The position numbers were made by a program, and so were the translations under genes. Below the pieces are notes generated by a model that searched no databases, was not told the origin of the DNA, and was given only the letters and a program-made list of their open reading frames with translations. DNA of 34,359 nucleotides, from positions 1-34,359 of the IMG/VR virus record IMGVR_UViG_3300042154_003276; one strand, 5' to 3'. The stretch comes from a virus. Shown here in pieces: positions 3,414-8,456 of this stretch. Position 1 is the stretch's first letter, and each line of letters starts with the position of its first letter.

Positions 3414-3608
3414 ATGAAAGCACGGCACAAATACAGAGCGATGTGTGGCAAACTCGATAGTGTAGGGTTTGCCATTTACATCAGCAGAGTTGACAAGAAG
3501 TGCTACAACTTCATAGTTAACGGAGAAGTAAAAAAAGTCTATAAACAGCGAAAGAGTTGTAACAGACAAATTGAAAAACTATTTAAAAATTTTAATCAAA
3601 ATGAGTAA
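3414..3608 (+). CDS. Small basic hypothetical protein
   Basis: The product is a 64-aa, strongly basic protein (many Lys and Arg, with three Cys) whose ATG directly follows the preceding stop. It overlaps the ParB-like gene by eight bases. Charge suggests nucleic-acid contact, but no fold is recognised. Confidence 0.6.
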   Translation: MKARHKYRAMCGKLDSVGFAIYISRVDKKCYNFIVNGEVKKVYKQRKSCNRQIEKLFKNFNQNE

Positions 3609-5145
3609 AGAAATCCAAAACATTCCATTAGATACTATCTATCCAAGTCCAACAAATCCAAGAAAACACTTTGATGCTAAAGCATTAGAGGAATTAGCAG
3701 AAAGCATTAAAGAACACGGTGTATTGCAACCCATATTAGTGAGAGAGATTATAGATGGTTTTGATTCAAAAGGAAATCAACAATATTCAATCGTATATGG
3801 CGAGCGAAGATATAGAGCTTCAAAACTGGCAGGATTGAAAACTATTCCTGCTGAGGTTCGATTTATGGATGACGAAAAGGCTTTTGAAATTCAGATCCTG
3901 GAAAACCTACAACGTGAGGACATCAATCCTTTGGACGAAGCCAGAGCTTTTGAAAGTTTAATGAAAAAAGAAGGTCTTGATTGGCTGGCATCCAAAATCA
4001 ACAAATCCAAAAAATACGTGCTGGATCGGGTGAAGCTATTGGATTTGTGTGACGAAGCAAAACAGGAGTTAGAAATGGGAGTTTTGCCGCTTGGACACGC
4101 TGTTTTACTATCAAAAATTGACATTGAAAAACAGGAAAAAGTTATCAAATCAGCTGGTTTATTTAGCGGAGAATCTATGACAGAAGGGACTTCTAAAGTC
4201 TATTGCACTAAAACACTTTCTCAACTTAAAAACTATATTGCTGGTACAATGTTATCGTTCGACAGAGTAAACTTCGACCTTGAAGATGCTGAATTATTAG
4301 CAGCTGCTGGAAGTTGTCAGGCTTGCCCAAAAAGAACTATCAATCAAAACCTTTTGTTTGGCGACATTACTGATAATGATATGTGTACTGATAGTTTTTG
4401 TTTCAATGCAAAAATTCAAAAGCATACAGAAAATCAAATTGAAATTGCAAAAAAAGCTTTTGGCGATGTTCAACTGGCAGAAACTGACAGATGGAGTAGT
4501 CAAATTATTTTGCAGGAAACTAAAGAAAAAGTTAAGTACCATGAAAAGAAAAACGATACTTATACCGTTCCTGTTGTCATCACAAAAACCGACAATTATG
4601 GTATTCACAATATTGGGAAAATTGTATGGATAGAAGCTCCAAAAGAAGAGGAAGAGGAAGAGGAAAAAGAAGCTAAGCCAACAGGCCCACAACCATGGGA
4701 GATTCGTTCAGCCAATGAATTTGATGAATTAACAGTACCAAGATTTAATGAATTGATAGGCGCTTGCGTAGGTACTCCTTTTCGTGCTACTCAAGTTGCT
4801 AATGCTTATCTAGTCGAAAGATTTACAGAACTTCGTTTAAGAATCCTATTAATAATTGCTCATATTTTAGGAATTCAAATCTTAGAAAAAACATCCTTTT
4901 TTGAAATTTTAGCTTCAAACAAAGACCTAACTAAGGATGAAGATTATTGCAGAAGTTTTGAATTAGCCACTGCAATTGTAAAAAATTGTTCTTTAGAACT
5001 CGCTTTAGCGGTTTTGAAAATCGAGGATGTTATAAATTGGGATTTGAACGAAAACGAATCGGTTCCTGAATGGGAATTGACAATTACCAAAATCTATACT
5101 ATTCTAGGTTTAGAAATACCACAAGTTGAATCTGAAGAAGAGTAG
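3601..5145 (+). CDS. ParB-like nuclease/partition-domain protein with four-Cys cluster
   Basis: This 514-aa protein is read from the ATG at 3601. Residues 1-90 are a ParB/Spo0J N-terminal domain with the GERRYRA box at 67-73, which forms the nucleotide (CTP) pocket in canonical ParB. Residues 100-150 form the central helix-turn-helix region (ENLQREDINPLDEARAF, then a helical pair). A second part carries Cys239, Cys242, Cys262 and Cys267, a likely zinc site. An acidic Glu/Lys-rich linker lies near residues 340-360, and the C-terminal 150 residues are helical. Canonical ParB is about 280-300 aa, so this is a longer phage version. No ParA is present, so plasmid-style partition is not indicated. 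Pairing with the adjacent SNF2 gene suggests a role in phage replication or transcription control. Confidence 0.85.
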   Translation: MSKEIQNIPLDTIYPSPTNPRKHFDAKALEELAESIKEHGVLQPILVREIIDGFDSKGNQQYSIVYGERRYRASKLAGLKTIPAEVRFMDDEKAFEIQILENLQREDINPLDEARAFESLMKKEGLDWLASKINKSKKYVLDRVKLLDLCDEAKQELEMGVLPLGHAVLLSKIDIEKQEKVIKSAGLFSGESMTEGTSKVYCTKTLSQLKNYIAGTMLSFDRVNFDLEDAELLAAAGSCQACPKRTINQNLLFGDITDNDMCTDSFCFNAKIQKHTENQIEIAKKAFGDVQLAETDRWSSQIILQETKEKVKYHEKKNDTYTVPVVITKTDNYGIHNIGKIVWIEAPKEEEEEEEKEAKPTGPQPWEIRSANEFDELTVPRFNELIGACVGTPFRATQVANAYLVERFTELRLRILLIIAHILGIQILEKTSFFEILASNKDLTKDEDYCRSFELATAIVKNCSLELALAVLKIEDVINWDLNENESVPEWELTITKIYTILGLEIPQVESEEE

Positions 5146-7003: not shown

Positions 7004-7705
7004 ATGAATTACATAGCTGAAATCAACTCGTTCTATGATTGGCTCGAAACAAACACTATTTCTGATTCTGCGATTAACTTATGGCACGCATTGATGGCTG
7101 TAAATAACAAGACAGGATGGAAAACGGAGTTTACTGTAGCCATATCAACCTTGGAGGGTAGAACAAGATTAAGCAAGTCTTCTATAATAAGAGCAAGAAA
7201 CCAACTCAAACAAGTAGGAAGGATTGATTTTAAGGAGCGAAAAGGAAATCAAAGTTGTATTTATTTAATAACTGCGTTTCACACAGACACGCAAAGTGTA
7301 ACACAAACCGTTACACAAACCGACACACAAACCGTAACACAAACCGACACCATTACTAAACTAAACAAAACTAAACTAAACAAAACTTCTCTTTTAGAAA
7401 AAGAGAGCAAAAGGAAAATTTCATTTTCACCACCCTCTTTGGAAGAAATTCAGAATTACATTTTAGAAAAAGATTTTAAAACTGTAAATGCTGAATCGTT
7501 TTTAAATTTTTATGCTTCCAAAAATTGGTACGTCGGAAAAAACAAAATGAAATCTTGGCAGATGGCACTATCAGGCTGGGAAAGTAGAAACAAAGAAAAA
7601 ACAAATCAAAATCAAAATGCAAATGGAAAACAAGCTCCAAACACAAAGCAAGCCTACGAGTTTAGCGTTGATAGGGTTATCGAGACCTACGCTGGCAATT
7701 CTTAG
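7004..7705 (+). CDS. Winged-helix replication initiator, DnaD/phage replisome-organizer-like
   Basis: This 233-aa protein has a winged helix-turn-helix at residues 20-90 (INLWHALMAVNN through LSKSSIIRARNQL to a wing ending CIYLIT). A Thr/Gln repeat linker covers residues 94-127. The C-terminal region at about 145-195 (ESFLNFYASKNW...GKNKMKSWQMALSGW) is a pattern common at the end of phage DnaD-like initiators. Such proteins bind the phage origin and recruit the host helicase. The linker DNA forms four exact-period 12-bp repeats followed by an AT-rich tandem repeat, so the origin may lie inside this gene as it does in lambda O. The 3' end overlaps the next gene by 89 bases in another frame. 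Confidence 0.8.
   Translation: MNYIAEINSFYDWLETNTISDSAINLWHALMAVNNKTGWKTEFTVAISTLEGRTRLSKSSIIRARNQLKQVGRIDFKERKGNQSCIYLITAFHTDTQSVTQTVTQTDTQTVTQTDTITKLNKTKLNKTSLLEKESKRKISFSPPSLEEIQNYILEKDFKTVNAESFLNFYASKNWYVGKNKMKSWQMALSGWESRNKEKTNQNQNANGKQAPNTKQAYEFSVDRVIETYAGNS
7301..7348 (+). repeat. Four 12-bp iteron-like direct repeats inside initiator gene
   Basis: Four tandem copies of ACACAAACCG plus two variable bases run without interruption from 7301 to 7348. Copies 2 and 4 end in AC, copy 1 in TT and copy 3 in TA. They code for the TQTVTQT/TDT linker of the initiator. Period, strictness and position just upstream of a melted-looking A/T-rich repeat fit initiator-binding iterons. Confidence 0.75.
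7355..7384 (+). repeat. 15-bp tandem repeat, AT-rich, possible origin unwinding element
   Basis: ACTAAACTAAACAAA occurs twice head to tail, starting seven bases after the iteron-like array, and is followed by more A-rich DNA. It encodes TKLNKTKLNKT in the initiator linker. A role as DNA-unwinding element is inferred from its place beside the array. Confidence 0.6.
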
Positions 7706-8456
7706 CGAAGATTATCCAAAGGTTAAAAGCATTGAATCAAAACAGGAAATAAACGGATTGCTTAATTTTTTAATCACGATTTTAAACATCAAAGTTTCAA
7801 GTGAAGAAGAAAAATTGCAGCTCGATAAGCAAATGGTTTTGATTTTCGATTTGATAAAATCAAAGTTTGGAAGCTTAACTGTTCAGGAAATCAAAGAAGC
7901 TTTCAAGATGTTTGTATCAGGAGAGTTTCCAGATTTGAAAGTATTCCGAATGCTCGACTGTATTGTGGTGGCAGATGTGCTAAACGCCTACCGTGAGTTC
8001 AGAAATGAAAGTTTGAGGGCCTACGACCAGAAAAAAAAATTATTAATTGAACAACCTCAACCCATGAGCGAAGAAGAAATAAAACAGAATTTCGACAATC
8101 TGGTGAAATTGATTTTTGAGGATTTAAAAGCCAATGGATTCAGTTCCGATGCTTGGTTGCTTTATGATTGTTTAGAATGCAATGGACTGATTAAAATTTC
8201 AGTAAAAGAGAAAAAAGAACTCTATGTCAAACAGGCGAAAATATATCTATTTGAAGCATCGCAAGAGGCAAATCAAAGGCATTTTCATTCTGCCAAATCA
8301 GTCATTCAGGATATTACCAACAAAATTGCAAAAGGAAAAATCATTAGATCCGTTGCTAATCGATGCAAGTCGATTGTGGTATCAGAATTTTTGAAGAATT
8401 ATTTAAACGATTTTGAAATTTTTAAAACCCAAATCAATGGCTTGGACAGAAAATGA
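7617..8456 (+). CDS. Hypothetical replication-region protein
   Basis: The product is a protein of up to 279 aa, helical and charged, with no Walker motif, zinc site or signal peptide. The longest frame starts at 7617 inside the initiator gene, overlapping it by 89 bases; an ATG at 7623 is a close alternative. Residues from about 30 onward (SEDYPKVKSIE) look like the beginning of the folded domain, so the first 25 residues may be poorly conserved. From memory, a protein of this kind follows the initiator in other Bacteroidota phages. A helicase-loader or primosome role is only positional inference. Confidence 0.7.
   Translation: MQMENKLQTQSKPTSLALIGLSRPTLAILSEDYPKVKSIESKQEINGLLNFLITILNIKVSSEEEKLQLDKQMVLIFDLIKSKFGSLTVQEIKEAFKMFVSGEFPDLKVFRMLDCIVVADVLNAYREFRNESLRAYDQKKKLLIEQPQPMSEEEIKQNFDNLVKLIFEDLKANGFSSDAWLLYDCLECNGLIKISVKEKKELYVKQAKIYLFEASQEANQRHFHSAKSVIQDITNKIAKGKIIRSVANRCKSIVVSEFLKNYLNDFEIFKTQINGLDRK

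Follow-up and report, generated by a model that had tools for sequence, protein, structure and literature searches.

The window, by which we mean the whole stretch of DNA that was analysed, is a virus record of 34,359 bp that encodes terminase, exonuclease VIII-like, ParB-like and SNF2-type helicase genes and for which megablast detected no close relative among deposited phages. The features considered here all lie within a single gene and are as follows.

7004..7705, plus strand: initiator gene P0001, encoding 233 aa with a winged-helix N-terminal domain (NTD), a repeat-coded linker and a small C-terminal domain (CTD), from the open reading frame and its translation
7004..7282, plus strand: NTD-coding part, a predicted winged helix-turn-helix (AF2 mean pLDDT 95.3)
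7175..7213, plus strand: codons of the predicted recognition helix, residues 58-70, from the AF2 model
7289..7298, plus strand: decayed iteron ACGCAAAGTG, a 7/10 match in 12-bp register with the array
7301..7348, plus strand: four 12-bp iterons, ACACAAACCG+NN, starting at 7301, 7313, 7325 and 7337
7349..7357, plus strand: spacer between array and tract, from the sequence
7358..7387, plus strand: pentamer tract (AAACT/AAACA)x6, 80% A+T, a candidate unwinding element, from the sequence and the 5-bp periodicity of homologues
7433..7579, plus strand: conserved CTD core P..F..FYxSKNWYVGKNKMKxWxxAxxxW, a candidate helicase-recruiting module that recurs on unrelated NTDs

Comparison with PHROG profiles relates P0001 to phrog_19658, a replication initiation protein (1.4e-10), and to phrog_186, a DnaD-like helicase loader (E=4.7e-9, residues 2-154), while the match to an O-like PHROG is weak (E=0.0011). 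In Pfam, HTH_36 was detected at 2.5e-4, under the family cut-off, and the protein matched neither Phage_rep_O, the O-type N-terminal model typified by lambda O, nor the DnaB_2/DnaD C-terminal domain. RepA_N (PF06970) was also absent from the Pfam matches, and resemblance to that family is structural only: the replication structures that superposed best on the predicted NTD in Foldseek are the RepA_N NTDs 4pt7, 4pql and 5kbj (TM 0.60-0.64, rmsd 2.3-3.0 A), with weak E-values of 5e-3 to 2e-2. A weak similarity to TubR was observed in the same way, and sequence comparison of P0001 with solved structures gave no match. The AF2 model of the CTD was of low confidence and had no Foldseek match, thus lending no support to a helicase-recruiting role.

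Two neighbouring genes deserve mention. An open reading frame of 279 aa (7617-8456; phrog_26016, annotated as unknown) overlaps the 3' end of the initiator gene by 89 nt in another frame and matches no Pfam family at cut-off; its product is a candidate replication partner. Two genes upstream of the initiator lies a ParB-like protein (3571-5145; ParB_N and HTH_ParB) with a GAAGAG repeat near the 3' end of its gene, possibly a second user of repeat DNA or a sign of plasmid-like maintenance.

The original prediction had described four uninterrupted 12-bp repeats in the linker-coding part of the initiator gene, and ACACAAACCG is indeed present as four exact copies, all in the array and none elsewhere in the window. 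When one mismatch is allowed, six matches are obtained against 1.6 expected, the two additional ones being distant from the array. The array also accounts for the top two scores, 93 and 77, among the 31 TRF tandem-repeat rows of the window. A 15-bp AT-rich duplication, likewise described previously, is perfect at 7355-7384 (ACTAAACTAAACAAA, TRF score 66), but the sequence is better read as six 5-bp units over 7358-7387 in the order AAACT, AAACA, AAACT, AAACT, AAACA, AAACT. Array and tract both code for the linker between the winged-helix NTD and the small CTD. Instability of the tract is at the 97th-98th percentile of window DNA, yet it is not the window minimum, and no exact DnaA box was found near tract or array. 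The suggested GC-skew analysis was performed and revealed no switch across the window, skew being almost uniformly positive; it is uninformative as origin evidence because nearly all window genes point one way.

Homologues were collected by scanning viral and genome contigs with the whole protein and with the NTD alone, yielding 122 genes after removal of near-duplicates, which are not independent lineages and which derive from phages and prophages of Bacillota and Bacteroidota. Among the first 21, nearly all carried a 12-bp array with a different word, followed by an A-rich tract of 5-bp period. In the DNA that follows the NTD in all 122 genes, autocorrelation reaches 0.68 and 0.65 at lags 12 and 24, compared with about 0.37-0.43 at all other lags from 6 to 30. 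In a reduced set of 42 representatives with NTD identity below 60%, the best lag was 12 or 24 in 32 and 11, 22 or 23 in 4 more, whereas in control stretches of the same genes lag 12 or 24 was best in only 2 (NTD-coding) and 5 (CTD-coding). Fitting gave a clear 12-bp consensus for 97 of the 122 homologues but not for the other 25, in which arrays are decayed or not visible. Most 12-bp units remain in frame, and where the tract is clear it begins, in most homologues, 6-19 bp past the fitted array.

Periodicity of this kind exceeds that imposed by the encoded peptide. The 12-bp periodicity of the 122 genes is 0.703, compared with 0.602 in synonymous-codon shuffles, with 70 genes above their shuffles at p<=0.05 and only 44 singly at p<=0.005. 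In several arrays, a slip of 1 bp brings copies of one word into two or three different reading frames. Thus, a Clostridiaceae prophage (L143) that carries the window's own 10-mer reads ACACAAACCG in two frames, as NTNR and as TQT; GGCACA occupies three frames in L010; and CCAATGGAC occurs five times in L364 at exact 11-bp steps and in all three frames. The last of these contigs (L364:2001-2264 and upstream) holds an initiator-like gene whose NTD is of another type and which, besides the CCAATGGAC copies, has a GATAG-type 5-bp tract. Out-of-frame 9-mers were found in 27 linkers, a number to which the tract itself contributes, versus 7 and 8 in control stretches, and their offsets of 23, 35, 11 and 47 (12n-1) identify slipped iterons. 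Past the array, scores at lags 5, 10 and 15 are 0.72, 0.65 and 0.61 as opposed to 0.45-0.56 at other lags, the lag-5 value being 0.719 versus 0.577 in synonymous shuffles (Wilcoxon 1.5e-16, uncorrected for relatedness). The tract is not a codon repeat, as a codon-level period must divide by three and the tract period is 5. In these comparisons, array and tract are demonstrably constrained at the level of DNA, independently of reading frame. The proposal that homologues would conserve the repeats in DNA while the linker peptide drifts was therefore strongly borne out, in the 12-bp spacing, the differing words, the frame slips and the 5-bp tract, and the linker DNA of homologues supports the originally proposed reading of the iterons as an origin within the initiator gene.

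Divergence of the iteron word follows divergence of the NTD. Iteron similarity is about 0.44, which is background, at NTD identities below 50%, increasing to 0.64 at 70-80% and 0.72 above 80%. Where NTD identity is 70% or more, iteron similarity is 0.651 with unrelated CTDs and 0.689 with homologous CTDs, while for homologous CTDs joined to NTDs below 60% identity it remains at background, 0.43. After regression on overall identity, iteron identity is best predicted by NTD columns 63, 58, 62, 47, 42, 25 and 59, and residues 58, 59, 62 and 63 lie inside the recognition helix (58-70) predicted by the independently made AF2 model. Columns 57-67 stand above the rest by 5.61 t-units, the maximum being 1.61 in permutations that did not preserve phylogeny. 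Combined, these results are strong but not conclusive evidence that iteron identity is coupled to the recognition helix of the NTD and not to the CTD, a covariation that indirectly favours the winged helix as the domain that binds the array.

CTDs of the family are of several unrelated kinds. A DnaB_2 CTD is present in AP45, PLE3 and L143, and a DnaB_2/DnaD domain also in pBac41, while that of the window is an unannotated module of ~65 residues which, in viral contigs, is fused to several other NTD types. Tract type (AAAC or AAAG) was the same in 0.98 of NTD-matched cases with unrelated CTDs, an agreement explicable by physical linkage alone, and with respect to the CTD it was the same in 0.52 against a background of 0.54. 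A role for the CTD as reader of the C/G position of the tract is unsupported; tract type tracks the NTD, not the CTD. In effect, the DNA coding for the NTD, the array and the tract behave as one exchangeable cassette joined to swappable CTDs. The cassette is found in the cultured phages AP45, PLE3 and Riemerella PT33 and, inside a probable replication gene, on the plasmids pBac41 (L342) and pHsw2 (L344), a location that is only suggestive of origin activity. On pHsw2 the cassette gene is adjoined by a MOBV relaxase and a primase gene. In a single assembly of Aquibacillus salsiterrae the initiator gene is present at least 4 times, each time on a different contig (L177, L179, L181, L185), which suggests several prophages or plasmids.

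The tract was also searched for as plain DNA, blind to protein, with open reading frames of at least 450 nt taken into account. This gave 39 distinct matches embedded in open reading frames, about 36 of which are in initiator-type genes, comprising the NTD family of P0001, Lin1244_N (4) and DUF1376 (2). Proteins of the latter two types would be initiators, judging from their layout of array and tract. Lin1244_N is unrelated to the NTD family of P0001 and is initiator-like. In a set of 20 Lin1244_N genes whose tract is clear, that tract is mostly AAAG[TAG] and scores 0.855 at lag 5. Upstream of it a word recurs at 11 bp (0.60 versus about 0.33-0.46 at most lags, lags 6 and 22 being likewise raised), and its copies often occupy two frames or all three. 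A scan for relatives of the DUF1376 type returned the query locus alone, and that family is therefore represented by two examples. Pure (AAACT)n runs were also seen outside long open reading frames, in viral contigs L048, L050, L108, L109, L110 and L120; as far as could be seen, these intergenic runs are unlinked to initiator genes and are unexplained by the origin model.

We consider it very probable that 7289-7387 is a phage origin inside its own initiator gene, in the style of lambda O, SPP1 gp38 and pSK41, and forms an exchangeable cassette of reader and origin. In this mechanism, replication of a tailed phage would start at 7289-7387, within the gene of the protein that recognises it. The 12-bp iterons, arranged head to tail, would be bound by the winged-helix NTD of one or more protomers stacked on the array, and this stacking may strain or open the adjacent A-rich pentamer tract. 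The CTD could then recruit the host replicative helicase or its loader. That the origin fires at 7289-7387 is what we infer from sequence.

Array binding could alternatively serve autoregulation, copy control or partition instead of an origin, the protein bound being the initiator or another DNA-binding protein. A ParB-like protein is encoded nearby (3571-5145), the NTD is weakly TubR-like in Foldseek, and a TubR-type winged helix is known to wrap the direct repeats of tubC centromere sites (PMC5016525). We nevertheless regard this explanation as unlikely, as it leaves the conserved downstream A-rich tract of 5-bp period unexplained, the layout recurs in the unrelated, initiator-like Lin1244_N family and covariation implicates the NTD of the initiator, not ParB. 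Less probable still, to the point of being strongly disfavoured, is that slippage produced the repeats as a low-complexity protein linker devoid of DNA function. Tandem repeats in linkers do grow by slippage and most 12-bp units are in frame; the period, however, stays at 12, not 9 or 15, across divergent genes, copies shifted in frame and the excess over synonymous shuffles are not accounted for, and neither are the 5-bp period of the tract and the coupling to the recognition helix.

Within the origin interpretation, the pentamer tract may simply be DNA of a generic kind that melts easily and is read by no specific factor, an alternative to which we give somewhat less than an even chance. High A+T content and instability at the 97th-98th percentile are compatible with it, as are the difference of the unit between groups (AAAC or AAAG) and the requirement for the AT-rich tract of lambda in unwinding (PMC7466680), whereas the strict 5-bp period above synonymous shuffles, its presence across unrelated NTD families and the retention of C or G at the fourth position are not expected of such DNA. 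Tentatively, and as a possibility that we favour less than we doubt it, the (AAA[C/G]N)n tract may be a widespread, unnamed origin element, a single-strand recognition sequence resembling the DnaA-trio but of period 5. It would then be common to several unrelated initiator NTD families in phages of Bacillota and Bacteroidota and have one common reader, either the initiator oligomer, the helicase or the loader.

Lambda, SPP1 and RepA_N plasmids already provide examples of an origin within the gene of its initiator. The iterons bound by lambda O lie inside the O gene, unwinding depends critically on their AT-rich flank, and the single strand of that flank is likewise bound by O (PMC7466680). The window shares with ori-lambda the mid-gene position of its putative origin and the order of iterons followed by an AT-rich tract (PMC7466680), and a likeness can be seen by eye between GACACTATTACAAAAG after lambda iteron 4 and GACACCATTACTAAAC in the window. 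In contrast to the 12-bp direct repeats of the window, lambda iterons are 18 bp with an irregular spacing of 20-24 bp according to the record annotation, and are imperfect inverted repeats (PMC7466680). In SPP1, gp38 binds direct repeats of oriL in gene 38, beside an AT-rich unwinding element, after which helicase loader and helicase act (PMC6316719). By published description, not sequence, the window resembles gp38/oriL in its putative own-gene origin, direct repeats and AT-rich element; it differs in that SPP1 supplies a loader and a DnaB-type helicase itself, neither of which was recognised among the scanned window genes.

The origin of pSK41 is located within rep, where the encoded linker is dispensable (PMC5703833). 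The RepA_N systems pSK41 and pTZ2162 are like P0001 in having a winged-helix NTD, that of P0001 being of similar predicted fold; they also have Rep boxes inside rep, a linker peptide that can be dispensed with and a variable CTD (PMC5703833, PMC7145576), the likeness to pSK41 being one of description. RepA_N iterons, however, are mostly semi-palindromic (PMC7145576), and P0001 has no PF06970 match. The NTD of P0001, like Bacillota homologues that include AP45, PLE3 and L143, is related by sequence to DnaD-like phage loaders (phrog_186; HTH_36 and DnaB_2/DnaD), whereas the CTD of the window is the ~65-residue unannotated module and not DnaB_2/DnaD. The single-strand element of DnaD (DRE) consists of TnnT pairs (PMC10201434). 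DnaA-trios and the DRE, which belong to the bacterial basal unwinding system and are read as single strands (PMC10201434), resemble the tract as short-period repeated elements beside double-stranded sites of the initiator, and the T-rich strand of the tract has TnnT every 5 nt, a resemblance to the DRE core that is trivial for T-rich DNA. The tract differs from DnaA-trios in its period, 5 versus 3, and in having no DnaA box nearby.

No description of a 12-bp (or 11-bp) and 5-bp grammar across phyla was found in the open-access literature, most subscription papers being outside this scope, and in the same literature recognition-helix coupling and the pentamer tract are likewise undescribed. The array-tract grammar across phyla and the pentamer tract thus appear new within that literature. 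They provide a rule by which origins may be found from sequence alone, namely a winged-helix NTD, an array of 11 or 12 bp and an A-rich 5-bp tract in one open reading frame. The family also offers roughly a hundred naturally occurring combinations of winged helix and iteron that could serve for learning a code of DNA recognition. Mosaicism of initiators would be explained by reader and origin travelling together while CTDs are exchanged, and the pentamer tract poses the testable question of what reads a strand with a 5-nt period.
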